In this document: positions 1-17,525 of the stretch, piece after piece
Numbering within the stretch: position 1 is the stretch's first letter
Layout: every line of letters begins with the position of its first letter
DNA from: Candidatus Falkowiibacteriota bacterium
GTDB lineage: Bacteria; Patescibacteriota; Patescibacteriia; Patescibacteriales; UBA12465
Direction: 5' to 3'
DNA: 44,708 bases
Assembly (NCBI GenBank): GCA_003554785.1
Contig: PWHG01000068.1
Span: 1 to 44,708 of the forward strand
Made by a program: the position numbers and the translations under genes
Notes under the pieces: generated by a model
Told to the model about the DNA's origin: nothing
The model's database searches: none
Seen by the model: only the letters and a program-made list of their open reading frames with translations

Positions 1-3000
1 AACAAGAAAATGTATTATTACTTTGGCTATCATAAAATCGATTAAGAGATGGAATCCATATTTGATCTTGATTGGGGTCAGTCATTTCACCCCCAGGACC
101 ATGATCACATGTTTTATTTTGAATACAATTTGGATGCCCTTCAGCAAATACACAATTTTTATGAGAGTCATCATCGCCATTATCACCATCTCCTGGATCA
201 CCATAAGATCCATAAAATCCCCAATTATCATAAACAGAAATATCAAAATCATCATCAATATTACTTAAGTCTGAATAAAAATGAAAAAATCTATGTTCCT
301 TATCTTCTTCTGGTTTATGATCTTGGTTAACTATTACCTGACTATTCCCATCGCCCCAGTTTATTTCAATTCTATTTAATGGTTGCTGCTCTATATCTAC
401 TATTGAATTAAATTCTAAATAATATAAACCTGGGTCTTCAGGAAAATTTGTTCCACCACCTGAAAATTCAAAAGAATCTCCAGTTTCAACTGATACTAAT
501 CTAACATTTTCAATTCTTGGATAAACAGCAAACCAATCATCTGGTTCTGATCTTTGTGTGCCAGAAGGTATTTCATTATAATAATCTTCATTAGTTGCAC
601 TATAACCATCTCCTGAATTAAACCTATTTTTATCATAATCATACTCAAAGCCACCAAATGATTTCAAAAATATTGACCTAAGAGGATAATCAAAGAATCC
701 AGTTTTAGCAGACAATTCATCATAATCTCCTTTCCATAATGGCAAACATTGACCATAGCCACCCTTATAACATGAATCATAATTTATTCTATCATAATCT
801 CCTTCTTCTGAGTCTGGGTCATAAATACAATAAACATTAGGATTTGCACTACATTGACCTATATTTTCACAAGATTCTCCTGAGCATCCATAAGGACGAC
901 CTGCAAAAATTTCCTGATTATTTCTTTCTGAATATTGATTTTTAAATTTAATAGCTGAGCTAGTATAAAAATCAAAATTATCTGGTAAAACTGCTCCTCC
1001 ATATGGAACTTCTTCTCTCAATCGTCCATATCTAATCCAATAATCATTATCACCCTCAGTAGTAAAATTAGAGCTTGCAACTGCATTAGCCATAAAATTT
1101 GGTGTTAATTGTGCTGGAGCTGAAGGGCTAACTCTGCCAGTCCATGCTTTATTAACTCCAGTTGGATCAACTACTTCAACAAAACGATTACAAGTTAAAT
1201 CATATACTTTATCTAAATTATCATGAGCAATATGTTTTAAATCATCTTCATCTAAAGGAGGATTTTTATAATCAAAAACAGCTATCGGTGGGTCGTAATT
1301 ATTAGATTCATTTAGCTGGCGACAAATTTCATGGTCTGAATAGTCGTACCCATCAGCCTCACAATCTGTTATAAGGCCATCTGAACCTAAAATATCCTGT
1401 TTATCTCTTGCTGTATGTTCGTTTACATGGAGACCATCATAAACCGCCCAAACATCTCTGTATTGAATATCACAACGACTATACTCTTCCGCTTCAATTG
1501 TTTTCCAATCACTTTTTATCTTAATGTCGGATCTAATTGTAGAGCTAGTCGGCGGATATTCAGTCACCCTGGGAATACAATAAAAATACCAATCTATATC
1601 TTCTTCCCTGTAACCGGCTACGGCCACATAATTTTCATCACCTCCGCAAATAGCTTCATGAACCTCAGCATGCTGTATTTCGCAGCAATGACCGGACAAT
1701 CTGACGCCATGCCTTTCAACATCTTGATTCTCATAACATCGCATCCAATTATCACCATCACCTGTGCCACTGCCTAAGGTAACTCCATGGGTAGCGCCAT
1801 AATCATTATAATCATGCCTTACAACATCGCTTCCAAGCAAACCACTGCTTGAATAATAAGCTTTCCCCTGCCAGCTGGCTGTTCTTTTCTCTAATAATTC
1901 AAAATCAGCATTAGCTTCAGCACAGTAATATAGGGGTTGAGGACCTTGGTAGCCTAATTTTTTTCTAGAATCAAGTTGAGAAGATGAAATTTCATCAACT
2001 GGATACCAGGTTATACAGCTATCAAAATTTAATGAATCACGTTCTAAGCAATAACCTTCAAGGCCGTGACTTATAATCTCATCATTTTGACTAATACAAC
2101 TTAAACTATTAGTTTTAGGGTAGAGACGACAATCCTTGGCTACATAATTATCAGGCCCTACTTTTAAAACTGGTTCAATATGGATATCATCAAAATAAAC
2201 ATAACGTTGCCCTTCATTTCTAGTATCAGAAGTTAAATATAATTTTAAATTATTATAATCTTGATTTAAATTAATTTTATGAATTTGTCTTTCCCAACCA
2301 GTATTAGCACTAGCATAATCTTCCCATATTACTTCATAATCATCTTCACTGCTCTCATTTACCAACAAAACCCTAGCATTTAAACCAAAATCTTTAGTAT
2401 TTAATAAGTAATGTAAATAATAATCTTCACCTCCTTTTAAAGAGTAAGTATTATTAACAGAATGAGGAGACATTTGATGATAGGCTAAAACTTTTAGATA
2501 ACCTCTTCCTTGAGCTGGATAATCGGTAGTGGCTTTATCAGGCTCATTGATTAAACTGTCAGCAACAATATTGTCATTAAAAGAACAATCATCACTGGAA
2601 TCAGGAAAATCACTAAAGCCTGTTTCAATATCTCGACGACAATGAAGAGCTTGGTTGAAATGTTCAAAATCAAAATGAAATTCAGAGTTTAAACCAACTT
2701 CATACATCTCTCCAACAAAATAACGATCAAGTAAAGAATAACCGGTTAAATTATGAAAACTATACTCACGATAATCAAAAGTTTCTGCTTCACCGTCATC
2801 ACTTTGAAAATTTACAAAATTAATACATTCATTTTTATCATTTAAATGATTACATTCACTTATATTATAACAAGTTTCTTCTCCAGTATCTTGATCAATT
2901 GCATAAGTACTGCAATCCAACCAACGAGCACAAGTTCTATCAGGTCTAACTTTAATTAATTCATTAGCATTACAGTCATCACCAACACAAGTTTGAGGAG

Positions 3001-6000
3001 GACTATTTGAACTACCAGCAAAAGCGTCAATATTTAGTTGAGATAAACCACTGGCGCCATCATATGATCTTTCATTAAAAACCACACAACCCCTATCAAA
3101 GTTCACTAAGCCATCACATCCCTCATAATCAACATTTTGTTTTAATTGATAATCAATTACAATTGGTTTTACTTCAATTATATTACCTACTTCACCACCA
3201 ATTACTGTAGCTGAATCATTAAGTTGAGAGTGAAAATAAATTTTTTGATTTGAAGACTCTATTTCAAATTCATCTGTCAATTCACTGGAAAAATCATTAC
3301 TAGCTAATTGAAAAGGTCTAGCATCTTTTTCAAATTGTAATAAAGTTTCTGGATTTTTAGCTGTAAATAAGTATAAAGTATTGGGCGTTAAATTAATGTC
3401 TTGTTCATTGTCGTCCCAACCACTTACAGGACTTCCTTGATAATTAGGATTATTTATTAAATTGGGAGAAAACTGACTAACAGGGTCAATATATTCTGTG
3501 CATCCTGAATTATCTGTGTCACAAATTCCTGCCTGTAAATTGGGGGTGGCTACTCGATTAGTTAAACCACCAAGGCCTATAGTTTTAAAATATTCAACTG
3601 AGCAAGGATAATCAGTTTTATCAAGCACACAGTTAGTATTTCCAGAACAATCATCATCACTTGAACAAATATTTCCATAATCTCCATCTCCCAAATCACA
3701 ACGCTTAACATCTTTCATAAACCAGTATTTTTGTGTGTCTAAAAATTGATCATCACGTTGATCATCACGTTGATGCCTATAAACACAAGCATCATTACCC
3801 GGATCTTTAAAGTATTGATAACCAAAATCACTATCCCACTCTCGACAACCTACTGCATCCTCTGCACACAGAGAACTAAAATAGTCTTCTGGATTGTTTT
3901 TTCTATAAACACTAGTTATTGTTTGGTTTTGTCCTTCACCTTCAACTTGTCCCATTCTAGTACAACCCTTGTTATTACTAGAACAAACCTTATCTCTGTC
4001 ATAAATTGCTGATATAAATTGATCGCCAGGCACATCAACACAATAATCATTGTTTACATCACAAATTGAAGTCTCGCGCCAATCAGAATTATTGGCAGTA
4101 TCTATCATCATTTCACAACCAACTGATGACTGATGACACAGACTACTAATTTTTCTTAAAAAGTGAGTTGTTTCGGTTTGATCTGTCCACCTGGAGCAAC
4201 CTAAATTATAGTCAGCACCTCTGTATTCATCAAAGATGTCGTAATAACAAATATCGGGAATATCACTGCTATCAGAAATTAAATAATATTTATCACTAAC
4301 TTCATTGATTACAATATTGTCAATATAGAAATCATTATCGGATCTAATTAATAATGTTTCATCACTAGCTACTGTGCGATTTAATATTGGTAAATTAAGT
4401 TCATAAATTTGCCACTGATCAACTCTAATTTGAACTGGATCAGGATAAAATTCAATTGGCTCTAGTTCATTATCAGTGTTAGTAAGAGAAAATTTAACAT
4501 TAGCGTTTTGTTCATCAGCTCTAGCTAAAAGCTGAATAGAATATGATTTTCCTTGATTTAAATTATTTCCTAAATTCAAACCAATTCCTATGCCTAGCTC
4601 ATCATCACTACAACCCTGAGTTAAGTCAGCTTGATACCATAAAGATTGACCATTTTGAGAAACTGAAACATTGGAAAGCTCAGCTTCATGACAATAACCT
4701 TCCCAGTTACCTATATTAGCTTGAAAATCATAAGCATCTACTAAACGAACGTTGCTACCATCACTACCGCTGTACTCACGACAACCAGCCATATTAGCGC
4801 TACAAGTTTTACCTTCCCCGGGAATAGCTTGATAAAGACAAGAGTTGTGTTCATCGCTCCAAATACCATTGTTTTTACAAACTCTACAAACATCGCCATC
4901 CCAACTTTTTTCAATACCGGTACAATCGGCATGACTTAAATTAGGATCAAAATTTACATCAGTCATTCGGTAGGTATGGCAATTTTCTGAACAAGTAATA
5001 GTTTTTGATACCGAGTTATATGAAACCTGTCCGTCTTGATTATAGAACTGTCGGCAATCAGGATTAAAATCAGGATGCCATGGAGATAAATTATATATCT
5101 CTTCTGTACAACTTTCATCTTCTGAAGTTAGCTCTGGATGACCACCCTCTTCCTTTAAACTCATGGCCCTTAATTGATAACCATCTTCATCATCACCTTG
5201 CCAGGTATAGAAATTAGTACAAAGTGAATCATCTGGTTTTATGCAATGCTTTAAGTGAGTATAATGTTCTTTTCTTTCTCCACCTGAAGGTATATCATCT
5301 AAGTTAGTAAACTCTGTGCAACCAGAAGCATCAGCAGAACATACTTGACTATTATAAGGTATTAAGTTTTCTGAATGAGAATTATAAAAATGACTAGCTT
5401 GAGCAACATAGACATCATAGGCCTCACACTCTCTTGGACAATAATCACTTGTAGCTGGTTGAGCTGGAACTGAAATATTATTTTTTTCACTAGTTAACAT
5501 AATACAGCCCACTTCATCTTGATTACATTGTCTGGCAAAATCATAACAAACAGATGGCGCATCATCTCTTAAGCGATAATCTGGCGTAGCGCTACTGTTA
5601 TCTTCATAACAAACATTTTCTAAATATTGAGGAATTAATTTTTGATATATTTTATAACTTCCATATGGTGAATAATCATTCTCCCAAGAAGAAATTTCTA
5701 ATTTTGGATTTTTAATGTAAGCAACACCTGAAACGTCTATCCTAAATTCCAACTCATTAACTTGAGGAAATTCTGGATCTAGATGATAGGTTTGATAAAG
5801 TCTTTGCCAGCTACCGGCTCCACTAGTTTCTGAATTATTACCCTCTTCTCCAATTTTTAAAGTGGCACTGCCAGATTCAACATAGACATCAGCACTAAAG
5901 GTATATGAATAACCAGGAGTGATAAAGAAATTTTCTGGTAACAAGGAATTTTGGGCACTTGAATAAAGTCCATCACCTTCAATTTTCATTACTTTAGCTC

Positions 6001-8278
6001 CAGAAAGTCCAAAATCTTGCCCATCAACTATTTCCGCTTCTCCCCCTATTATTGGCCAATAATCATTTATTTTTCCATTTTCCACACTATCTCCAATTTC
6101 ATCATATTGAAAATCAGCTCCCATAATAAGGTTGCTACCCCAGCCCGACTTAACTCTCATGAGTTCTGAGCAACCTTCATTTTCTTGTGAGCAACTTGCT
6201 AAATCATTATTAAAATAACTGCTTGGACTAGTATTCCAATCAATTTGATTGTTGCTAGTATCATAAGCGCCACGTAAATAATACTCCAAACAACCGGCAT
6301 TTTCTTCACTACAAATACTGTAATCTAGAGTATTTTCTAAATAGGCAACTTTATCTCCTGAGGAGTCAGTAAAGGCAGTACAAGTATTATACTCCGGCTC
6401 ACAAGAAGCATGTTCAAAAGACCAAATCCTTTTTTCCTCATTGCAATAACCATAAGCTAAACAACCTCCAGAACTAGGATCTTCTTTTATACAAGTCATC
6501 TCATCAGCACAATAATCATCAGCTCTGGTGACACTTAAACGACTTGGAGTATCTGGCATATTAGGAATACCACTTTGACCATCTAAAACTTGTTCATCTA
6601 AAATTTGTCCACCTACTCCTTGTTTTTGACAAAAACTAAGTGGAGCTTTTAAAACCCAGTGTGGATCAACTAAGCCTTGACACCATGAAGCATCTCTTCT
6701 ATCAAAAGCAGAAGAAAATTCTTGATATTCATCTTCAGGATCAAAACAAGAAACAAGATCCATTAAAGTAGCATCTCTATCTTCACTCATTTCAGCTGCA
6801 ATCTCCCAACCAACAGGTAATATTCGATGTTTACGTAATACAGAAATATTTCGTAAAGTATAAGCATTATCTCTTCCTTTATTATTATCAGAAGTTAAAT
6901 TCCAATTTGAACGTAGAGAACCATCATTAATCGCTTCAATTACAGTCTTTTTTTCGTTTATAGCTTGAGAAAAATTAGTGTCAATAACACAATCCGTTGG
7001 ACCGGGATTTTCAGGATCAGGACAAATTGATAAATCTGAAGTTATATTATAGTCTGCTTGCTGAGAAAAAGCCGGTTCTAAAATTTGAGAAATTTTTTCT
7101 TCAACTTTAACATTACTATATTGAACACTTGGATCTCGATCAGCATCAGCTAAATCTACTTCTTCTTGAGCTTCATCAACTGTTTTTCCAAAACCTTGCA
7201 TCAAACGATTATAATATTGCATAGCTAAAGTATTGATAAAAATGTTAGCCGCATCAACAAAAGCATCACCAGTATACTTACCTAAATTTTCCATTCTACT
7301 TGTTGCCCCTATTTCTGCTTCCATTTCTGCTTGTCCAGGTAAACTCTCAGTGCTTCCAGATATACCCACAACATCTAACCAACGACCTGATTCTATCCAA
7401 TCACGATCAGCTGTCGCTGTTGCATCTCTTTGTGCTTGCCCTAAATCACTTTGCATGGTTAAAGCAATGCCAATATCACTTTGTCTAGGATTAAAAATAC
7501 CACTGACGCGATTTAGATAATCTCTATCATCCCAAGTACTTGGATCAAGTCGCTCTATCTCTTCTGACCAATTTCTAACTAATTCTGAGGCCGTACAGGT
7601 TGGTTGCCTTGGTCTGGTATGCTGAACCAGTCCCATACTAATTCTTAATTTAGCGTCTATTGAAGAAGGCTGACAAACTGCTACAGGCCGAGCAGTACTA
7701 CTAGCTTGTTTTTCTACACTGCCAATACATTGATTATATTGTTGCATGCATTCATTAATACATTCATCTATTTCCCCCGGCATTCCTGTTGTATCCATTC
7801 CCGCACTACAAGACATCTCACAAACTTGTAATTGTGAACTACAATCTTCCATACCAGCAACTTGATCATCATAATCATCAACTCGAGTTTGCGCCCAATT
7901 ATTAACAAAACCTTCAACGAAATCACCAGCGGCTTCATCGGCAATGTTGGCAAAATATTCTCCGGTGCCTTCAGTAATAAATAAAGGCTTCTGCCCTTTG
8001 TCGCCAGAAGCAATCCAAGTAGCAGAATCAATCGCTACTTTATTTAAAGCTTTCCGTAAGGTTTGTTGAAAAGCTAAAGCTCCTCCTTTATCCCATGCTC
8101 TACCAGCAAGCTCTCTAGCTTCAGAGGCAGCATATTTTATTCCATCCCAAGCAGCGCCCACTGCATCAACAACCGCAAATTGAGCTTTAACTGGCTTAGG
8201 TGGCAGGAAGGTAAAAGAAAAAGAAATTACAAATATTAATATTAGGAAAGTAAATTTTTTAAATTTTGCTTTATACAT
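1..8278 (-). CDS. Giant secreted Cys-rich modular protein, C-terminus outside window
   Basis: Reading the minus strand from the ATG at 8278, the frame stays open to the window edge: 2,759 full codons with no stop. Residues 1-32 are a signal peptide (basic start, hydrophobic core, PVKA then Q). Next comes a helical region containing IASGDKGQKPLF. A symmetric Cys hairpin follows (C146, C153, C157, C173, C177, C184). Nine C-x5-G-C motifs lie between residues 656 and 1593. Three beta-rich segments ending like carbohydrate-binding-module or jelly-roll domains lie near 712-862, 1181-1328 and 1898-2041. A PKD-like INWGDG stretch is near residue 2641. No internal membrane segment is evident. The gene is 18 nt downstream of the acidic membrane protein and probably cotranscribed with it. 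I recall similar uncharacterised giants beside type IV secretion or pilus genes in CPR genomes, but this is unverified. The function is unknown; a surface adhesin or filament component is an inference. Confidence 0.9.
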   Translation of the reverse strand, partial: MYKAKFKKFTFLILIFVISFSFTFLPPKPVKAQFAVVDAVGAAWDGIKYAASEARELAGRAWDKGGALAFQQTLRKALNKVAIDSATWIASGDKGQKPLFITEGTGEYFANIADEAAGDFVEGFVNNWAQTRVDDYDDQVAGMEDCSSQLQVCEMSCSAGMDTTGMPGEIDECINECMQQYNQCIGSVEKQASSTARPVAVCQPSSIDAKLRISMGLVQHTRPRQPTCTASELVRNWSEEIERLDPSTWDDRDYLNRVSGIFNPRQSDIGIALTMQSDLGQAQRDATATADRDWIESGRWLDVVGISGSTESLPGQAEMEAEIGATSRMENLGKYTGDAFVDAANIFINTLAMQYYNRLMQGFGKTVDEAQEEVDLADADRDPSVQYSNVKVEEKISQILEPAFSQQADYNITSDLSICPDPENPGPTDCVIDTNFSQAINEKKTVIEAINDGSLRSNWNLTSDNNKGRDNAYTLRNISVLRKHRILPVGWEIAAEMSEDRDATLMDLVSCFDPEDEYQEFSSAFDRRDASWCQGLVDPHWVLKAPLSFCQKQGVGGQILDEQVLDGQSGIPNMPDTPSRLSVTRADDYCADEMTCIKEDPSSGGCLAYGYCNEEKRIWSFEHASCEPEYNTCTAFTDSSGDKVAYLENTLDYSICSEENAGCLEYYLRGAYDTSNNQIDWNTSPSSYFNNDLASCSQENEGCSELMRVKSGWGSNLIMGADFQYDEIGDSVENGKINDYWPIIGGEAEIVDGQDFGLSGAKVMKIEGDGLYSSAQNSLLPENFFITPGYSYTFSADVYVESGSATLKIGEEGNNSETSGAGSWQRLYQTYHLDPEFPQVNELEFRIDVSGVAYIKNPKLEISSWENDYSPYGSYKIYQKLIPQYLENVCYEDNSSATPDYRLRDDAPSVCYDFARQCNQDEVGCIMLTSEKNNISVPAQPATSDYCPRECEAYDVYVAQASHFYNSHSENLIPYNSQVCSADASGCTEFTNLDDIPSGGERKEHYTHLKHCIKPDDSLCTNFYTWQGDDEDGYQLRAMSLKEEGGHPELTSEDESCTEEIYNLSPWHPDFNPDCRQFYNQDGQVSYNSVSKTITCSENCHTYRMTDVNFDPNLSHADCTGIEKSWDGDVCRVCKNNGIWSDEHNSCLYQAIPGEGKTCSANMAGCREYSGSDGSNVRLVDAYDFQANIGNWEGYCHEAELSNVSVSQNGQSLWYQADLTQGCSDDELGIGIGLNLGNNLNQGKSYSIQLLARADEQNANVKFSLTNTDNELEPIEFYPDPVQIRVDQWQIYELNLPILNRTVASDETLLIRSDNDFYIDNIVINEVSDKYYLISDSSDIPDICYYDIFDEYRGADYNLGCSRWTDQTETTHFLRKISSLCHQSSVGCEMMIDTANNSDWRETSICDVNNDYCVDVPGDQFISAIYDRDKVCSSNNKGCTRMGQVEGEGQNQTITSVYRKNNPEDYFSSLCAEDAVGCREWDSDFGYQYFKDPGNDACVYRHQRDDQRDDQFLDTQKYWFMKDVKRCDLGDGDYGNICSSDDDCSGNTNCVLDKTDYPCSVEYFKTIGLGGLTNRVATPNLQAGICDTDNSGCTEYIDPVSQFSPNLINNPNYQGSPVSGWDDNEQDINLTPNTLYLFTAKNPETLLQFEKDARPFQLASNDFSSELTDEFEIESSNQKIYFHSQLNDSATVIGGEVGNIIEVKPIVIDYQLKQNVDYEGCDGLVNFDRGCVVFNERSYDGASGLSQLNIDAFAGSSNSPPQTCVGDDCNANELIKVRPDRTCARWLDCSTYAIDQDTGEETCYNISECNHLNDKNECINFVNFQSDDGEAETFDYREYSFHNLTGYSLLDRYFVGEMYEVGLNSEFHFDFEHFNQALHCRRDIETGFSDFPDSSDDCSFNDNIVADSLINEPDKATTDYPAQGRGYLKVLAYHQMSPHSVNNTYSLKGGEDYYLHYLLNTKDFGLNARVLLVNESSEDDYEVIWEDYASANTGWERQIHKINLNQDYNNLKLYLTSDTRNEGQRYVYFDDIHIEPVLKVGPDNYVAKDCRLYPKTNSLSCISQNDEIISHGLEGYCLERDSLNFDSCITWYPVDEISSSQLDSRKKLGYQGPQPLYYCAEANADFELLEKRTASWQGKAYYSSSGLLGSDVVRHDYNDYGATHGVTLGSGTGDGDNWMRCYENQDVERHGVRLSGHCCEIQHAEVHEAICGGDENYVAVAGYREEDIDWYFYCIPRVTEYPPTSSTIRSDIKIKSDWKTIEAEEYSRCDIQYRDVWAVYDGLHVNEHTARDKQDILGSDGLITDCEADGYDYSDHEICRQLNESNNYDPPIAVFDYKNPPLDEDDLKHIAHDNLDKVYDLTCNRFVEVVDPTGVNKAWTGRVSPSAPAQLTPNFMANAVASSNFTTEGDNDYWIRYGRLREEVPYGGAVLPDNFDFYTSSAIKFKNQYSERNNQEIFAGRPYGCSGESCENIGQCSANPNVYCIYDPDSEEGDYDRINYDSCYKGGYGQCLPLWKGDYDELSAKTGFFDYPLRSIFLKSFGGFEYDYDKNRFNSGDGYSATNEDYYNEIPSGTQRSEPDDWFAVYPRIENVRLVSVETGDSFEFSGGGTNFPEDPGLYYLEFNSIVDIEQQPLNRIEINWGDGNSQVIVNQDHKPEEDKEHRFFHFYSDLSNIDDDFDISVYDNWGFYGSYGDPGDGDNGDDDSHKNCVFAEGHPNCIQNKTCDHGPGGEMTDPNQDQIWIPSLNRFYDSQSNNTFSC
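3746..3769 (-). repeat. 12-bp perfect tandem duplication inside the giant gene
   Basis: The 12-mer ttgatcatcacg occurs twice back to back (3746-3757 and 3758-3769), with a partial third copy. It encodes the duplicated residues RDDQ-RDDQ between two Cys-containing segments of the giant protein and keeps the frame. This looks like a small slippage duplication. Confidence 0.8.
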
Positions 8279-8854: not shown

Positions 8855-9715
8855 TTAATTCAAGCCAAATATAATTGAGTTTAAATTTTTCCAATCATTA
8901 ACAGACAAGTTTTGTGCACGACAATCTTCTTTTAAATTAGATTTTATTAAATAATTACGAATTATATCTTCTTTTATATTTAAGCCTGCTGATAAATTAT
9001 TTTTAAGCATTTTTCGTTTAGCACTAAAACCAATTTTTACAAGTTTAAATATTTTTTTATCTTCTTCTAATCTTTCTTTATCAACTAATCCGTTTTTAAG
9101 TCGTTTAGTTTTATATTCAATGCTAATTAAGGCGCTATCAACTTCAGGTTGAGGCCAAAAATTATCAGCTTTAATTGTTTTAATAATCTTAGCTTGAGCA
9201 AAATACTGGACTGAAAAAGCTAAAAGACTCATATTGGGTGGTTGAGCGATTATTCTCTCAGCTACTTCTTTTTGTAGCATTAAAAATAGAGACTGGGGAG
9301 GAAAAGGGTGGCTTAGATAAGTTCTAAGAAAAATTGAAGTAATATTGTAGGGCAGATTAGCTACAACTTTATAGCTTTTCTCTGGAGAAAAATAATCAAA
9401 AACATTAAATTTTAATATATCTTGATTAACTATTTCTAAATTCTTTTCATCTTTAGTTAACTTGGCAGTTTGTAAATATTTTGCCAAATTATCATCCATT
9501 TCAACTGCTACCACTTTTTTAGCTTTGCCACTTAAATAAAATGAAAGAAAACCCAGTCCTGGCCCAACTTCTAAAACCTGACAATCTTCTATTTTAGAAA
9601 AATTGATAATATCTTGATAAACATTTTCATTAATTAAAAAGTTTTGACCTTTGGTTTTTTGTGGGTAGATATTATATAATCGACAAATATCTTTGGTTTT
9701 TTTTAAAAGTGACAT
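8855..9715 (-). CDS. rsmA: 16S rRNA (adenine1518-N6/adenine1519-N6)-dimethyltransferase
   Basis: RsmA (KsgA) dimethylates the two adjacent adenines in the 3'-terminal helix of 16S rRNA, using S-adenosylmethionine, late in 30S assembly. The 286 residues include the substrate-entry motif KGQNFLINE (22-30), the SAM-binding VLEVGPGLGF (about 47-56), an acidic residue for ribose in VAVEMDD, and the catalytic NLPYNI near residue 120. The C-terminal part is the helical RNA-binding domain. Length is close to the family norm. The ATG directly abuts the leuS stop codon (TAA then ATG), so the two are cotranscribed and probably translationally coupled. Confidence 0.95.
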   Translation of the reverse strand: MSLLKKTKDICRLYNIYPQKTKGQNFLINENVYQDIINFSKIEDCQVLEVGPGLGFLSFYLSGKAKKVVAVEMDDNLAKYLQTAKLTKDEKNLEIVNQDILKFNVFDYFSPEKSYKVVANLPYNITSIFLRTYLSHPFPPQSLFLMLQKEVAERIIAQPPNMSLLAFSVQYFAQAKIIKTIKADNFWPQPEVDSALISIEYKTKRLKNGLVDKERLEEDKKIFKLVKIGFSAKRKMLKNNLSAGLNIKEDIIRNYLIKSNLKEDCRAQNLSVNDWKNLNSIIFGLN

Positions 9716-12151
9716 TTATTTAACTACTATATTAAATATCTTTTGAGGCACATAAATTTTCTTAACTACCTCTTTGCCTTCTAGCCATTTCTTTAATGTC
9801 TCATTTTGATTTATTTTCTCCCAAACATCTTTTTCTTTGTCTGTGCTGTTAACTAAAATTCTTGCTCTTAGTTTTCCATTTACTTGCACACCAATTTCAA
9901 CTTCCTGATCACTTAAAAGCTCTTTTTTATATTTTGGCCAAGTTGAGCGGAAGATAGATTTTTTTTGACCAAGACCTTGCCACAACTCTTCACTAATATG
10001 AGGAGCAAAAGGCGCTAGGATTTGTAAAAAAGCTTTTCTTTCATCTTTATTAATTGGCCAACAATCATGTTTTTTTAAATAATCATTTAAAAGATTAGTT
10101 AAAATCATCAGTGAAGAAACAGCTGTATTGAATTTTAGATCAACAATGTCATTTTCTATTTTTTTAATAGTTTTATGCAATTGTTTTTGAACTTTAATAT
10201 CTAATTTTTCTTTTTTGTTATTGTAGTTTGTGTAGATATTAAAGATTTTTTCTAAAAATTTATAGGCACCATTTAAACTGCGACTATTCCAAGTATTAAC
10301 TTGTTCAAAAGGACCCATAAACATAGCATAGACTCGCAAACTATCGGCTCCATATTTTTTAACCATATCATCTGGATTAACTACATTCCCCCATCTTTTG
10401 CTCATCTTTCTACCATCTTCTCCCATTATCAAACCAACTGAGCGAAATTTTTTAAAAGGCTCTAGCTCACTTACTACACCTATATCATAGAGAAACTTAT
10501 GCCAAAACCTGGCATAAATTAAATGTCTTGTAGCATGTTCAGCGCCACCAATATAGAAATCAACTGGAGACCAATATTTTTCTTTTTCCTTGCTAACTAA
10601 CTCTTTATCATTTTTAGAATCCATGTAGCGCAAATAATACCAACAAGAACCAGCCCATTGAGGCATAGTATTGGTTTCACGTTTAGCTGGTTTTTGACAT
10701 TTAGGACAAGATACATTTACCCAACTATCAATTTTTTCCAATGGTGACTGACCAGTACCTGTTGGTTGATAATTTTTTACAATAGGTAATTTTACTGGCA
10801 AATCTTTTTCCGGTACTGGCACCACGCCACAACTTTTACAATGAATAATTGGAATTGGCTCTCCCCAGTATCTTTGGCGAGAAAATACCCAATCATTTAA
10901 TTTGTAGTTTACTTTTTCTTTCCCTAGTTTTTTTTGCTTTAAAAAGGCGAGCATTTTTTCTCTAGCCTCTTTAGAATGGAGCTTAGAATATTTTCCTGAA
11001 TCTTTTAGATAGCCTTCGCCAGTATAAACTAAAGAGTCATCATAGTTTTTTTCATCTGGTCTAACTACATATTTAATAGCTAAATTATATTTTTGCGCAA
11101 ACTGAAAATCCCTTTCATCATGAGCTGGCACTGCCATGACCGCACCTGTGCCATAGGAAGATAGAACGTAGTCAGCAATAAATATGGGGATTTCTTCTTT
11201 AGAAAAAGGATTAATGGCTGACAAGCCTGTTAGCTTAACTCCGGTTTTTTCATTATTGTTTTTAGTTCTTTCTAAATCACTTTTTTGCTGACAGCTTTTA
11301 ATATATTCTTCTGTCTCTGACCAATTATCTATTTTAGCTGATAATTTCTCAATTAATGGATGCTCGGGGGAAAGTACTAAATAGCTGCAACCATAGATAG
11401 TGTCTAAGCGGGTGGTAAATACATCTACACTTTCACTGTCCTCTTTTATTTTAAAATTTATCACCACTCCATGACTGCGACCAATCCAATTTCTTTGCAT
11501 TTCTAAAATTGCTTCTTCCCACTGATTTAATTTATCTAAGTCTTTTAGCAATCTTTCCGCATAGTCTGTAATTTTTAAAACCCACTGACGTATAGATTTT
11601 TTCTCAACTAAAGAATTACATCTTTCACAACGACCATCTTCTAAATCTTCATTGGCTAGACCAGTTTTACAATCAGGACACCAATTAATTGGCTCATTTG
11701 ACTGATAGGCTAAGCCTTTTTTATACATTTGCAAAAAGATCCATTGAGTCCATTTGTAATAATCAGGGTCAGTGGTTCTTATCTCTCTTGACCAATCATA
11801 GCTAAAACCTAAAATTTCTAATTGTTTTTTATAAACTTTAATATTTTTTTCTGTGGAAGTTTTAGGATTTACCTTATTTTTAATAGCATAATTTTCAGCC
11901 GGCAAACCAAAGGCATCAAAACCCATTGGATGAAGTACACTGTAGCCTTGCATCATTTTAAGGCGTGAAATAATATCGGAAGCAATATAACCTTTGGGAT
12001 GACCGACATGAAGACCATCTCCAGATGGATATGGAAACATGTCTAGAATATAATACTTTTCCTTTTTTTTATCTTTTTGGCTTAAATATAAATTGCTATC
12101 TTGCCAATTTTTTTGCCATTTTTTTTCAATTTTTAAATGTTTATATGACAT
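9716..12151 (-). CDS. leuS: Leucyl-tRNA synthetase
   Basis: Class I aminoacyl-tRNA synthetase charging tRNA-Leu in the cytoplasm. The 811 residues carry the HIGH signature as HVGH (48-51, in PYPSGDGLHVGHPKGY), a zinc-type CPDC/CERC knuckle, a CP1 editing domain containing TTRLDTIYG, a second Cys pair (CKSC, CPKC), the KMSKS loop as KMSKR near residue 580, and a C-terminal anticodon-binding and tail domain ending in VKKIYVPQKIFNIVVK. It is somewhat shorter than the E. coli enzyme but appears complete. Xth ends 4 nt upstream and rsmA follows without a gap, so it is the middle gene of a three-gene operon. Confidence 0.97.
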   Translation of the reverse strand: MSYKHLKIEKKWQKNWQDSNLYLSQKDKKKEKYYILDMFPYPSGDGLHVGHPKGYIASDIISRLKMMQGYSVLHPMGFDAFGLPAENYAIKNKVNPKTSTEKNIKVYKKQLEILGFSYDWSREIRTTDPDYYKWTQWIFLQMYKKGLAYQSNEPINWCPDCKTGLANEDLEDGRCERCNSLVEKKSIRQWVLKITDYAERLLKDLDKLNQWEEAILEMQRNWIGRSHGVVINFKIKEDSESVDVFTTRLDTIYGCSYLVLSPEHPLIEKLSAKIDNWSETEEYIKSCQQKSDLERTKNNNEKTGVKLTGLSAINPFSKEEIPIFIADYVLSSYGTGAVMAVPAHDERDFQFAQKYNLAIKYVVRPDEKNYDDSLVYTGEGYLKDSGKYSKLHSKEAREKMLAFLKQKKLGKEKVNYKLNDWVFSRQRYWGEPIPIIHCKSCGVVPVPEKDLPVKLPIVKNYQPTGTGQSPLEKIDSWVNVSCPKCQKPAKRETNTMPQWAGSCWYYLRYMDSKNDKELVSKEKEKYWSPVDFYIGGAEHATRHLIYARFWHKFLYDIGVVSELEPFKKFRSVGLIMGEDGRKMSKRWGNVVNPDDMVKKYGADSLRVYAMFMGPFEQVNTWNSRSLNGAYKFLEKIFNIYTNYNNKKEKLDIKVQKQLHKTIKKIENDIVDLKFNTAVSSLMILTNLLNDYLKKHDCWPINKDERKAFLQILAPFAPHISEELWQGLGQKKSIFRSTWPKYKKELLSDQEVEIGVQVNGKLRARILVNSTDKEKDVWEKINQNETLKKWLEGKEVVKKIYVPQKIFNIVVK

Positions 12152-13022: not shown

Positions 13023-13781
13023 ATGGCTCTTGAATATAGAATGAAATATGCGCAAATGAAAGCGCGTCAAAGAAAAAAAATCAAACCTTGGTATCTAAAA
13101 CCTTGGGGTATTTTTTCTTTAGTTATAATTGTTATGGTAATTTCCTTTATTATCGCTGCCTCAATTTATATTGTCAGAACTGCTAAAGAATATAATGAGC
13201 AGCAATTAGTTGAACAAACTAAACGTGAATTTGTTAGATATGAGCAAGCAATTGAAGGCGATATTAACAACATTAGCTTTGGTCCAGAAGATGCTACAAT
13301 AACTGTAGTAAAATTTACTGACTTTGCCTGTCCAATTTGTGCTCAAAGTGCTCCAATTGTTTTAAATTTAAAAGAAAATTATGAAGATAAAATTAAATTT
13401 ATTCACCGTGATTTTCCCACACAAGAAAATTCAGTTGACTTGTCCTCTGGCGCTTACTGCGCTAATGAACAAAATTCTTTTTGGCAATATTATCAACAAC
13501 TATTTAATCAACAAGAACGCTTCAAGAATTTACAAGATGAAGATTTATATATTGAACTAAGCTCACTTAGCAAAGAGCTAAACTTAGATTCCACTCTTTT
13601 TGCTGAATGTTTAAGTGAACAGCGATACATTAGTATTGTAGCCAATGACTTTCAAGACGTTGAATATTTAAATCTAAAAGGCTCTCCTACTTGGTTTGTA
13701 AATAGTCATCCAATAGAAGGTCATGTTAGCCAAGATCAGTTTATACTACTAATTGATACATTAATAAGAGAATTAAATTAA
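13023..13781 (+). CDS. Membrane-anchored DsbA-like thiol:disulfide oxidoreductase
   Basis: A 252-residue protein: a basic cytoplasmic N-terminus (1-23), one membrane anchor (about 28-52), a short linker, then a thioredoxin/DsbA-like domain outside the membrane. The active site is CPIC (103-106, in FTDFACPICAQSAP), and the cis-proline loop is in KGSPTWFVN near the C-terminus. A helical insertion between them carries additional Cys residues (GAYCANE, AECLSEQ). The family (DsbA/BdbD, Thioredoxin_4) oxidises or isomerises disulfides in exported proteins. No DsbB or VKOR partner is in the window. It leads the POR operon, ending 1 nt before the gamma-subunit gene, and a Cys-rich pilin lies further down the same operon. 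That suggests a substrate, though this is inference. Confidence 0.9.
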   Translation: MALEYRMKYAQMKARQRKKIKPWYLKPWGIFSLVIIVMVISFIIAASIYIVRTAKEYNEQQLVEQTKREFVRYEQAIEGDINNISFGPEDATITVVKFTDFACPICAQSAPIVLNLKENYEDKIKFIHRDFPTQENSVDLSSGAYCANEQNSFWQYYQQLFNQQERFKNLQDEDLYIELSSLSKELNLDSTLFAECLSEQRYISIVANDFQDVEYLNLKGSPTWFVNSHPIEGHVSQDQFILLIDTLIRELN

Positions 13782-13782
13782 T

Positions 13783-14349
13783 ATGATAAAAATAAGAATC
13801 CACGGACGTGGCGGACAAGGTGTTGTAACTGCTGCTGAGCTAATTGCTTTAGCGGCCTTTAATGATGGTATAAAAGCTTTTGCTTTTCCGGTTTTTGGAG
13901 TTGAGAGAACCGGTGCTCCCATTCAATCTTATGTCCGTCTAGATAAAGAAAAAATTCTTTCCAAGGAACAAATTTATCATCCCGACATCATTATCGTTCA
14001 AGATCCAACTCTTCTTGGCGAAGATGATACATTAAGTGGGAGCAATAAAGATACTCAATTAATAATTAATTCTGAAAAAAGCGGTCAAGAAATTGAAAAA
14101 ATCATTAAATCTAAAATAAAAGAAGAAAATATTTTTTCCACTCCAGCTACTAAAATCGCCTTGGAGGTAATCGGAAAAAATCTTGTAAATACAGTAACTT
14201 TAGGTATTTTTGCACGACATACTAAATTAATATCTCTGGCTTCTTTAAATAAAGCGGTTAAGGAAAAATTTAGTGAAAAAAGTCAAAAAATAATTAATGA
14301 AAATTGCCAAGCAATTAAACTTGCATACAATTATGAAAAAAAACAATAA
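13783..14349 (+). CDS. porG: Pyruvate/2-oxoacid:ferredoxin oxidoreductase, gamma subunit
   Basis: Gamma subunit of a four-subunit 2-oxoacid:ferredoxin oxidoreductase, which converts a 2-oxoacid plus CoA to acyl-CoA and CO2 and reduces ferredoxin. The 188 residues start with the hallmark IRIHGRGGQGVVTAAELIA (3-21). FPVFGVERTGAPIQSYVR follows, and a VNTVTLGIFA segment lies near the C-terminus. Length is typical. The delta, alpha and beta genes follow on the same strand. Pyruvate is the most likely substrate from overall subunit similarity, but the sequence alone does not exclude another 2-oxoacid. Confidence 0.93.
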   Translation: MIKIRIHGRGGQGVVTAAELIALAAFNDGIKAFAFPVFGVERTGAPIQSYVRLDKEKILSKEQIYHPDIIIVQDPTLLGEDDTLSGSNKDTQLIINSEKSGQEIEKIIKSKIKEENIFSTPATKIALEVIGKNLVNTVTLGIFARHTKLISLASLNKAVKEKFSEKSQKIINENCQAIKLAYNYEKKQ

Positions 14350-14632
14350 ACATAAAAAAACTAGCCTAAAAACTCCGCGACCATACTGCGGTCCGAAAGG
14401 CTCTTTGGTTAATAAAACTGGTAATTGGCGAACTAATCGCCCCGAAGTTGATTTCAATAAATGTGTCGGCTGCTCACTTTGTGCTAAGCTTTGTCCTGAA
14501 CCTTGTATAGAAATGAAAAAAATAAATAAACAACTAAAGCCAGTAATTGATTATAATTATTGTAAAGGTTGTGGTTTATGCGCTAAAGAATGTCCAGTAA
14601 AAGCTATAAAAATGAAAAAAGATTATAAATAA
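14333..14632 (+). CDS. porD: Pyruvate/2-oxoacid:ferredoxin oxidoreductase, delta (ferredoxin) subunit
   Basis: A small 2[4Fe-4S] ferredoxin-type subunit that passes electrons from the POR catalytic core to free ferredoxin. Two cluster motifs are visible: CVGCSLCAKLC followed by PEPC, and CKGCGLCAKEC followed by P. Before them is the family-typical GNWRTNRPEVDFNKC. I chose the ATG at 14333, which gives 99 residues and a 17-nt overlap with the gamma gene. An in-frame ATG at 14297 would add 12 residues and overlap by 53 nt. Neither has a Shine-Dalgarno sequence, so the start is uncertain. The alpha gene begins 4 nt after the stop. Confidence 0.92.
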   Translation: MKKNNKHKKTSLKTPRPYCGPKGSLVNKTGNWRTNRPEVDFNKCVGCSLCAKLCPEPCIEMKKINKQLKPVIDYNYCKGCGLCAKECPVKAIKMKKDYK

Positions 14633-14636
14633 AAAA

Positions 14637-15812
14637 ATGAAAAAAGAAAAAATCTTAAAAAACAATAAAAAAGAAGAATTACTTGAAGGTTCAATGGCAA
14701 TTGCTAAAACCGTAAACAACCTTGAACCAAATGTAGTTTCTGCTTACCCTATAACCCCCCAAACCCATATTGTAGAAGAGTTGGCCAAGTTTAAAGCCGA
14801 TGGAAAATCCAAATATGAGTACTTATTAGCAGAAAGTGAATTTGCAGCTGCTTCTATCATTCTTGGTGCTAGCGCTGCCGGTGTTCGCGCCTATAGCGCC
14901 ACCAGCTCTCAAGGACTGCTACTTATGACCGAAGTTTTATATAATATCTCTGGACTGCGCCTACCAGTAGTTATGACCATTGCTAACCGAGCTATTGGTG
15001 CGCCAATTAATATTTGGAACGACCACAGTGACGCTATGGCAATTCGTGATGCTGGCTGGATTATGCTATTTGCTAGCGATCATCAAGAAGCCGCTAATCA
15101 ACATGTTTTAGCTTTCAAGGTTGCTGAAACCCTAAGATTGCCAGTAATGGTAAATGTTGACGGCTTTATTATCACTCATTCCTACGACTCAGTAATAATT
15201 CCTAAAAAAACCGATATCAAGAAATTTCTGCCTAAATATAGCCCTGCTCTTGGAACTTATTTAAACTCTAAAAATCCAATTACTATTGGCGCCTTTTTTA
15301 CTCCTGACAAATACTGGATAGAGAGAAAAACTATTCACCGAGATCTAGATTATGCCAAAAAAACCATTAACTCAGCCTTTAACACTTGGCAGAAAATATT
15401 TAAAACTAACTCTTCACCGCTTTCTAAACTAAACACCGGTCTTTTAGAATACATTGGCTCTAAAAATGCTAAAAAAATAATTATTGCTATGGGATCAATG
15501 TGCTCAACTATTGAAGAAGTTTTAAAACAAGAAAAAAACACTGCTTTAATTAAAATAAAAACATATCGACCGTTTCCTTTTGAGGAAATACAGGAAATAC
15601 TTAAAAACAAAGAACAAGTATTTATATTGGAAAAATCAATTGCGCCTGGTAGTCAAGGTGGTCCTTTATTTTTAGATATTGCTTCAAGTTTTAAAAAAGA
15701 AAAACCAGAAATTACAAACTACATTGTCGGTTTAGGCGGAAAAGATGTTAGTGAAGAGATAATAACTAAGATAACTAGAAACGATACAAAAAAACTAGTT
15801 AATTTTCTTTAA
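14637..15812 (+). CDS. porA: Pyruvate/2-oxoacid:ferredoxin oxidoreductase, alpha subunit
   Basis: The alpha subunit carries the TPP pyrimidine-binding and transketolase C-terminal domains. The 391 residues include SAYPITPQTHIVEELAKF, the E of LLAESEFAAASI (which in this family contacts TPP), the loop YSATSSQGLLLMTEVLYNIS, and MTIANRAIGAPINIWNDHSD. A C-terminal Rossmann-like part contains IAMGSM and KTYRPFPFEEI. Length matches the four-subunit type. The stop is only 10 nt before a pilin gene, which separates alpha from its obligate partner beta. Confidence 0.95.
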   Translation: MKKEKILKNNKKEELLEGSMAIAKTVNNLEPNVVSAYPITPQTHIVEELAKFKADGKSKYEYLLAESEFAAASIILGASAAGVRAYSATSSQGLLLMTEVLYNISGLRLPVVMTIANRAIGAPINIWNDHSDAMAIRDAGWIMLFASDHQEAANQHVLAFKVAETLRLPVMVNVDGFIITHSYDSVIIPKKTDIKKFLPKYSPALGTYLNSKNPITIGAFFTPDKYWIERKTIHRDLDYAKKTINSAFNTWQKIFKTNSSPLSKLNTGLLEYIGSKNAKKIIIAMGSMCSTIEEVLKQEKNTALIKIKTYRPFPFEEIQEILKNKEQVFILEKSIAPGSQGGPLFLDIASSFKKEKPEITNYIVGLGGKDVSEEIITKITRNDTKKLVNFL

Positions 15813-15822
15813 TTTAAAAAAT

Positions 15823-16620
15823 ATGAAAAAGTTTAAAAAAATAGCCATAATTAGCTTTTTATGCCTTTTTATTGTTTCCATATATTCTATAGCTAATGCA
15901 GAAGTAAGAGAAATTGAATTTAAACCAAATATAGATATTCCAGGTTTTGAAGAAAAAGTAACTTTTGGAGATAGCACTACAGAAAATATTGCCAAGTATG
16001 TTAAAGCTATATACGATTATGGAATTAGTATTGGAGCTATTTTAGCCACGGTAGTTTTAATGGCGGCTGGGGTAATTTGGCTTACATCCGGTGGTAGTCA
16101 AGACAAAATTGGACAAGCTAAAAATATGATATCAGGAAGTATTATTGGCCTAGTCTTACTTTTTGGCTCTTACACTATTTTAAATTTAGTTAATCCTGAG
16201 TTGGTGGATTTTAATATTCTTGATATTGATAATATTGCTGAACTACAAACAATTTATTATTGTGATAAACAACTCGGAGGGACTGAAAAAGTTACAATAA
16301 ATCTTGAACAAAGAGATAATGGAACAATTTATAATACTGAAAAACGAGAGGTTGTTGGAAAACTTTGTAATTGGGACACCGAGACTTGTCAATTAAATGA
16401 AGATACCAATAAATGGATTTGTAAAGAAGCATTTGGATGTTGTATTACAAGAAATTCGACTAATGGTAATTTTATTAACTGTCACTCACCTACAGGCATG
16501 AACAAAAAAGATTGTGATGACTATATAAAAACAGGAACAACAGCTAGTTTTATAGATAATGCAAAATGTAAATGGAATGATCAATATACAAACGCATTCT
16601 GTGAAAAAATTGAAGATTAA
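15823..16620 (+). CDS. TrbC/VirB2-like pilin with Cys-rich C-terminal extension
   Basis: A 265-residue exported protein. A signal peptide (about 1-26, ending SIANA) precedes a short linker. Two hydrophobic segments follow, near 65-90 (GAILATVVLMAAGVIWLTSG) and 102-125 (SGSIIGLVLLFGSYTILNLV), separated by the polar loop SQDKIGQAKNM. This is the arrangement of TrbC/VirB2 pilins of type IV secretion systems. Beyond it lies an unusual extension of about 130 residues with ten cysteines, including the pair GCC. No other secretion gene is adjacent. The gene is embedded between porA and porB, 10 nt and 26 nt away. The pilin assignment rests on topology and the loop motif, so a membrane protein with another role is possible. 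Confidence 0.75.
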   Translation: MKKFKKIAIISFLCLFIVSIYSIANAEVREIEFKPNIDIPGFEEKVTFGDSTTENIAKYVKAIYDYGISIGAILATVVLMAAGVIWLTSGGSQDKIGQAKNMISGSIIGLVLLFGSYTILNLVNPELVDFNILDIDNIAELQTIYYCDKQLGGTEKVTINLEQRDNGTIYNTEKREVVGKLCNWDTETCQLNEDTNKWICKEAFGCCITRNSTNGNFINCHSPTGMNKKDCDDYIKTGTTASFIDNAKCKWNDQYTNAFCEKIED

Positions 16621-16646
16621 TATTTTAACATTAATAAATAACAAAA

Positions 16647-17525
16647 ATGAATAAAATAAATAATAAAAATAAACTTTCACCCGGCCACAGCGCTTGCGCT
16701 GGTTGTGGACAATTGTCAGCCGTTCAGTCAGTTATGCGGGCCTTAAGCGATGATACTATCATTGTTAATGCTACCGGTTGTCTGGAAGTAACCACTACAA
16801 AATTTCCTGAAAGTGCCTGGAGTCTTCCTTGGCTTCACTCACTCTTTGCCAATGCTTCGTCTATTGCTAGTGGAGTGAAGGCGAGTTTAAAAAACCAAGG
16901 TAACAGTAAAACCAAAGTAGTAGTTCAAGCTGGAGATGGTGGAACCTATGACATCGGAATGGGACAAATTAGCGGTATGTGGGAAAGAGACGATAATGTT
17001 TTATATGTTTGCTATGACACTGAAGCCTATTCTAATACTGGAATTCAAGCTTCTGGTTCAACTTCATATGGTGCTAGTACTACTACTACTCCAGCTGGAG
17101 AAAAAAGTATTGGTTCAAGTAATCATAAAAAGGATATGATAGGAATTGCTTTAGCTCATGGTTTAAAATATGTAGCTCAATCAATATCTGGTTTTCCTGA
17201 AGATATTGAAAATAAGGTAAAAAAAGCCATAAAGACTAAAGGCTCAAGTTATATTCAAATACTTACACCTTGTATTCCTGGTTGGAAACTACAAAGCGAT
17301 CAAGCTGCCTATGTGGGCAAACTTGCAGTTGAAACTGGACTATACCCTCTACTTGAATATGTTGATGGAAAATTAACTAAGTCTAGTATTAACTCTAAAT
17401 TTAAAATCAAATCAATTGATAAATACTTAAGTGTTCAAAAAAGATTTAATCACTTAAAACAAAAAGACAAAGAAAAAATTCAGGAAATTGCTAAGGAAAA
17501 TATCAAAAAATATAAGTTAAAATAA
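16647..17525 (+). CDS. porB: Pyruvate/2-oxoacid:ferredoxin oxidoreductase, beta subunit
   Basis: The beta subunit binds the TPP diphosphate and a [4Fe-4S] cluster. The 292 residues show cluster ligands in HSACAGCGQLSAVQ (CxxC), NATGCLEVTT and the late TPCIPGW. The TPP/Mg2+ motif is GDGGTYDIGMGQ. The conserved YDTEAYSNTGIQASGSTSYG and the C-terminal PLLEYVDGKL are also present. It closes the DsbA-POR operon 13 nt before a strong terminator. Functional POR needs alpha, beta, gamma and delta, and all four are here. Confidence 0.95.
   Translation: MNKINNKNKLSPGHSACAGCGQLSAVQSVMRALSDDTIIVNATGCLEVTTTKFPESAWSLPWLHSLFANASSIASGVKASLKNQGNSKTKVVVQAGDGGTYDIGMGQISGMWERDDNVLYVCYDTEAYSNTGIQASGSTSYGASTTTTPAGEKSIGSSNHKKDMIGIALAHGLKYVAQSISGFPEDIENKVKKAIKTKGSSYIQILTPCIPGWKLQSDQAAYVGKLAVETGLYPLLEYVDGKLTKSSINSKFKIKSIDKYLSVQKRFNHLKQKDKEKIQEIAKENIKKYKLK

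Follow-up and report, generated by a model that had tools for sequence, protein, structure and literature searches.

The window analyzed here, 44,708 nucleotides in length, is the entire contig C54 of a genome assembled in 86 contigs (911 kb, 82% complete). Its first 8.3 kb are filled by a minus-strand frame that opens with the ATG at 8278 and runs to base 2, comprising 2,759 codons and zero stops. A sequence-only reading had reported a stop-free secreted frame of at least this length among heavily interrupted alternatives, and rereading of the strand upheld both points: the remaining five frames of the region contain 151-491 stops apiece. The chance of a random frame so long is ~10^-89 at the local G+C content of 34.8%, and the G+C content by codon position 1/2/3 (0.48/0.39/0.17) is coding-like, with a strongly A+T-biased third position. 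The encoded protein (hereafter the giant) also begins with the signal peptide noted in that reading. Residues ~1-33 are Sec-signal-like, with lysines, a hydrophobic core (Kyte-Doolittle 2.1) and then KPVKA/Q, and a hydrophobicity scan of the whole frame found no second clear membrane segment. The frame is truncated at base 1 by the contig end. In complete copies from relatives the stop lies 5-57 residues past the C-terminal DNWG motif, and the window giant already extends 72 residues past it, so little should be missing and the protein is probably complete except for its last residues. The features of the locus are collected in Table 1.

Table 1. Features of the giant and its upstream neighbors in the window (X, ordinary-sized protein of type IV secretion system (T4SS) loci in another class; residue numbers refer to the giant).
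Feature	Coordinates	Strand	Remarks
Giant secreted protein, 2,759 codons	2..8278	-	stop-free frame, C-terminal end cut by contig end
Sec-type signal peptide (predicted), residues 1-33	8180..8278	-	only strong hydrophobic segment; also in relatives
T4SS-locus module, residues ~70-330	7289..8071	-	homologous to X, hhalign 99.4
Cysteine-rich modules, residues 410-715	6134..7051	-	best conserved part, 44-50% identity; C-x5-GC at 656, 696
Jelly roll 1, residues 715-869	5672..6136	-	predicted beta sandwich; hhalign 96.4% to jelly roll 2
Cysteine-rich module 2, residues 870-1159	4802..5671	-	46% identity; related to modules 1 and 3
Jelly roll 2, residues 1160-1334	4277..4801	-	PF02018 (CBM_4_9), residues 1183-1293, E 2.3e-6, above gathering score
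Cysteine-rich module 3, residues 1335-1609	3452..4276	-	42% identity; C-x5-GC at 1381, 1432, 1471, 1586
Variable beta-rich segment, residues 1610-1719	3122..3451	-	28% identity; length 20-336 in relatives
Cysteine-rich module 4, residues 1720-1839	2762..3121	-	41% identity to relatives
Jelly roll 4, residues 1840-2044	2147..2761	-	PDB profile matches 4d0q E 6e-6, 1gui E 9e-5; hhalign 93.5% to jelly roll 1
Cysteine-rich module 5, residues 2045-2129	1892..2146	-	45% identity to relatives
Variable C-terminal region, residues 2130-2599	482..1891	-	22-29% identity; most variable in sequence and length
C-terminal domain, WGDG (2641), DNWG (2684)	197..481	-	35% identity, in most relatives
Partner, membrane-anchored, 172 aa	8297..8815	-	18 bases upstream of giant; hydrophobic segment at residue 18
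ksgA/rsmA	8855..9715	-	conserved upstream neighbor, 44/51 loci
leuS	9716..12151	-	frequent upstream neighbor, 31/51 loci
DsbA/thioredoxin-like, membrane-anchored, CPIC motif	13023..13781	+	PF13462, E 4.6e-27

Cysteine-rich modules alternate with jelly rolls along the body of the giant. A C-x5-G-C motif recurs nine times, 61 of the 98 cysteines are at least 80% conserved, and the cysteine modules (41-50% identity) are better kept than the jelly rolls (28-34%). Cysteine modules 1, 2 and 3 are related to one another (hhalign 80-94%), as are jelly rolls 1, 2 and 4, so the giant has grown through internal duplication. The DsbA-like protein encoded further upstream is a candidate disulfide-forming enzyme. 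Of 39 giant loci, 27 have such a gene upstream; among 19 loci of the class in which X is found, none has one labeled.

No characterized family had been recognized in the sequence-only reading, and the core of the giant is covered by no Pfam or NCBIfam model, a result that extends to X. The full-length similarity to a known protein against which that reading had staked its proposal was not encountered; a whole-protein PDB search with the giant was empty. The segment-wise structure and profile searches that it had recommended did recognize carbohydrate-binding-type jelly rolls in the body of the protein. Two stretches, residues 34-1165 and 1150-2150, were modeled with AlphaFold2 at medium quality (mean pLDDT about 69-71); the beta modules came out well and the helical N-terminal module poorly. 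Foldseek recognized only CBM4/16/22-type jelly rolls in these models, in agreement with the profile searches; the best match, of jelly roll 2 to CBM22, had a TM-score of 0.74 by target length, and CBM_4_9 is the giant's only Pfam match. The likeness to CBM4/9, CBM16 and CBM22 thus consists of a common jelly-roll fold and a weak sequence profile match, and the modules of the giant are not attached to a recognized enzyme. In a profile alignment to 1h6y, read by eye, the aromatic and charged sugar-binding residues of CBM22 were not evident, and the jelly rolls may therefore be structural. Pfam gave no catalytic domain in the giant, and neither Pfam nor NCBIfam gave a toxin domain. Kinship to binary toxins and Cry/Vip3 proteins was considered and rejected, since those Foldseek matches span jelly-roll modules only, with low TM-scores.

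The giant is a member of a large family. Colinear homologs were found in 35 of the 40 nearest genomes (best 38-47% identity), and a class-wide search with a profile of residues 34-1165 detected homologs in 259 of 286 genomes, or 227 of the 241 of good quality, which gives substance to the earlier remark that the N-terminal part resembles unnamed CPR giants. Within the class the homologs mostly lie in open frames of ~2,400 to >4,600 aa, those at the short end often being close to where a contig stops, and complete giants in a first set of 20 loci measure 2,518-2,932 aa. Outside the class, 3 of ~347 Patescibacteria genomes in a phylum-wide sample gave a match, each to fragments only. Named relatives with a giant are nearly all Candidatus Falkowbacteria, with Magasanikbacteria and Parcubacteria in addition. 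The class is presumably ABY1, because giant-bearing relatives include the family UBA917, which has been placed in ABY1 (PMC11809585). A phage or plasmid origin was rejected, as no relatives of the giant were found in viral contigs or plasmids and the protein has no PHROG match. One Gastranaerophilales genome includes a 3.5-kb contig that bears a giant fragment (L100), probably through a binning error.

Across the family, the giant occupies a fixed place in a T4SS locus, with the order ksgA, partner, giant, small membrane protein, VirB6-like, two unnamed genes, PrgI (VirB3), TrsD-like and VirB4. Neighbors were counted from 73 named giant loci, with denominators of 51 upstream and 38 downstream. 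The partner precedes the giant in 48 of 51 loci, ksgA and leuS do so at the frequencies given in Table 1, and downstream a small membrane protein is found in 28 of 38 loci and a VirB6-like protein within six genes in 32 of 38. VirB4 is located on the same strand, downstream of the giant and 14-41 kb away from start to start, in all 48 genomes listing both on one contig, so that the virB4 and virB6 neighborhood suspected from the sequence is indeed present among relatives. The VirB6-like and TrsD-like labels were assigned from position, hydrophobicity and the published Patescibacteria T4SS order (PMC12102498), neither protein having a significant Pfam match. Co-occurrence of giant and VirB4 is strong, not strict: 14 of 17 tested genomes without a detectable giant, mostly fragmented assemblies, retain VirB4, and a giant is present with no VirB4 match at 1e-60 in G430, G222, the single-contig G525 and others. 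Most relatives' partners carry TSP3 calcium-binding-type repeats between the membrane anchor and a conserved C-terminal motif; the partner in the window is free of these repeats.

In the genome of the window, the upstream neighbors of the giant can be seen, whereas its downstream side falls beyond the end of the contig. Its T4SS operon is found on contig C1, in the order small membrane protein, VirB6-like, 343 aa, 490 aa, PrgI (PF12666), TrsD-like and VirB4-type ATPase (PF19044), and VirB2-like pilins are also present in the genome. Since giant and operon are on separate contigs, their linkage here rests on homology. Direct joining of C54 to C1 was considered, and the comparison of ends gave it no support (no common 21-mer, no end overlap, and no recognizable giant tail at the end of C1).

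The origin of the giant was traced through a single weak phylum-wide match, between the A2 profile and a 576-aa secreted protein at locus L118 (E 1e-8). This protein, X (L118:8654-10384), is part of the order ksgA-partner-X-VirB6-like-PrgI-TrsD-VirB4, and relatives of it were detected in 64 of the 142 genomes of its class. In 19 of 19 loci inspected, X adjoins the VirB6-like gene of the T4SS operon, with one 342-aa ORF between them in L161; these loci were chosen as matches to one X protein, and the count therefore informs on position, not prevalence. The N-terminus of the giant (~260 residues) aligns with X at an hhalign probability of 99.4 (E 5.2e-22, 203 columns), pairing two conserved cysteines together with G-x-P-x-F and AD-x-A-x-G-x-F motifs. 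Giant and X have in common an operon position flanked by the partner and VirB6-like genes, a homologous N-terminal module and a predicted Sec signal peptide, but X is 425-1,700 aa long with 4-18 cysteines, whereas the giants sampled are ~2,500-3,700 aa long with 98-142 cysteines. The PDB searches gave no T4SS match; PDB matches of the X profile were of coiled-coil type, confined to the variable tail of X, and were discarded. Similarity to the VirB5/TrbJ minor pilins was likewise absent from the Pfam and NCBIfam matches of giant and X. On this profile evidence, the N-terminal module of the giant is homologous to an ordinary-sized T4SS-locus protein of another class, and because the homology coincides with a matching operon slot, the giant is best described as a roughly five-fold, class-wide enlargement of a T4SS-locus component. 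Its membership in the T4SS locus is well supported. The class-wide family, the ordinary-sized counterpart and the CBM-type folds all go beyond what had been read from the window.

PrgB of pCF10 and TraN of F are large extracytoplasmic proteins that stabilize cell contact for T4SSs, and TraN is cysteine-rich. For the giant a similar way of working is proposed, but Pfam and NCBIfam gave no sequence match to either, and membership in their families is not claimed. PrgB-type adhesin domains are not matched in the giant, and no cell-wall sorting signal is visible in the complete C-termini of relatives. The T4SSs of Patescibacteria are MPF-FATA-like, and the loci described here resemble them in their PrgI/VirB3, TrsD, VirB4 and VirB6-like genes (PMC12102498, PMC10633639). 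In these systems a PrgB-type adhesin is reported as not detected (PMC12102498), and neither a giant secreted component nor a protein at the X slot is described in the available portions of PMC12102498 and PMC10633639. The Saccharibacterium S. epibionticum, the sole genetically tractable Patescibacterium, cannot grow epibiotically without its T4SS (PMC10633639), and PMC10633639 and PMC11665869 give the substrate, role and means of host contact of this T4SS as unknown. A secretion system that is essential in one epibiont and has no recognized adhesin makes an unnamed contact component plausible.

In a system of this kind, what would so large a secreted protein do? Our proposal, which we hold to be somewhat more probable than its alternatives taken together, is that the giant is a T4SS-locus component exported by Sec and serving as an extracellular host-contact arm. 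It draws on the open frame, the class-wide family, the T4SS gene order, the N-terminal homology, the module architecture and the combination of a conserved skeleton with a variable end; the CBM-type folds, the linkage of a DsbA-like gene in the giant-bearing class only and the need for a T4SS in S. epibionticum also speak for it. The enlarged component would be exported through its predicted signal peptide, and its N-terminal module would dock, at the surface of the cell, with the membrane complex of the T4SS (VirB6-like protein and membrane-anchored partner). The alternating cysteine-rich modules and jelly rolls would then form a disulfide-stiffened chain projecting outward, whose variable C-terminal end may touch the host cell surface by binding the host or its glycans, and the arm would hold the secretion channel in place for transfer. 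The adhesin role that we infer for the giant leads to a broader and more tentative suggestion, to which we give somewhat less than even credence: one class of ultra-small bacteria, within the Patescibacteria, may have remodeled its host-directed T4SS about a giant surface arm, disulfide-stiffened and ~2,500-4,600 residues long, which arose as an unnamed ancestral T4SS component was enlarged by duplication of cysteine-rich and jelly-roll modules, and this arm could be the missing contact organelle of a T4SS with no known adhesin.

The chief rival, unlikely in our estimate, is a conduit with no binding role, in which the giant would be a disulfide-stiffened extension of the T4SS channel across the S-layer and host gap and the jelly rolls would be purely structural. 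The conservation pattern, in which the cysteine skeleton outlasts the jelly rolls, fits a conduit too, as do the sugar-binding residues that are not evidently retained and the conserved slot beside VirB6. Known channel proteins, however, are not built like the giant, and the length range within the class is more readily squared with a flexible arm than with a fixed conduit. A glycan-capture or S-layer-like protein at the surface, whose sole tie to the T4SS is a common operon and whose function lies in nutrition or envelope structure, would explain the CBM-type folds, the secretion and the presence in nearly all genomes of the class. We regard it as rather improbable, since Pfam finds no catalytic domain, the N-terminal module is conserved on its own, as a short protein, in the T4SS operon of a different class, and the gene order is consistent over very diverse genomes. 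A T4SS substrate or effector, delivered into the host cell with the variable C-terminal region as payload, would account for that region and for the linkage; but the giant does not look like a T4SS substrate, having a Sec signal, conserved cysteines in extreme number and, past the variable region, a further conserved domain. In addition, no toxin domain was found and the position beside VirB6 is maintained across lineages, so this reading is very improbable. An assembly chimera or chance open frame, to which only the end of the frame at the contig end might point, has a negligible probability given the odds against such a frame and the full-length, colinear, stop-free homologs known from dozens of independent assemblies, single-contig genomes among them, and the existence of the family excludes artefact as a general explanation.

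Giant exoproteins have been described before in class ABY1. Those of Patescibacterium danicum are of the FhaB type (4,939-6,025 aa), were proposed for host adhesion, and had no full-length homologs among Patescibacteria (PMC11809585). Both sets are giant, secreted and of the same class, but the family described here is near-universal in the class and FhaB-free, Pfam giving CBM_4_9 and no FhaB or haemagglutination repeat domains. The Vampirococcus giants were rejected as a match because their domains differ, and a literature search for cysteine-rich or CBM-bearing CPR giants linked to a T4SS found none. The host-contact proposal concerns a conserved secreted T4SS-locus component that has no family model, whose operon place is now given and whose growth in one class has been traced. 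The short X form of the other class offers a tractable test object, the giant's variable end is a candidate for setting host specificity, and the giant itself, present in nearly every genome at a fixed place, is a practical class marker.

Several minor observations concern the T4SS genes and their surroundings. Small Bacteroidota-like lipoproteins (LxSCxKDxxxP) are encoded beside the giant in L022, L023, L025, L026, L029 and L037, and one is also found on contig C1 (L043:11141-11425), upstream of the T4SS operon, which shares this contig with a type IV pilus operon (pilB-, pilC- and pilM-like genes and pilins; L044:1908-8852). In the window, a protein resembling T4SS pilins (PF18895; 15823-16620), whose long tail contains cysteine, sits within a 2-oxoacid:ferredoxin oxidoreductase cluster (13783-17525). 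At L110:9983-20752, a 3,589-aa giant is directly followed by a VirB6-like protein of 2,082 aa, far above the usual length, hinting that this neighbor has been enlarged in parallel.
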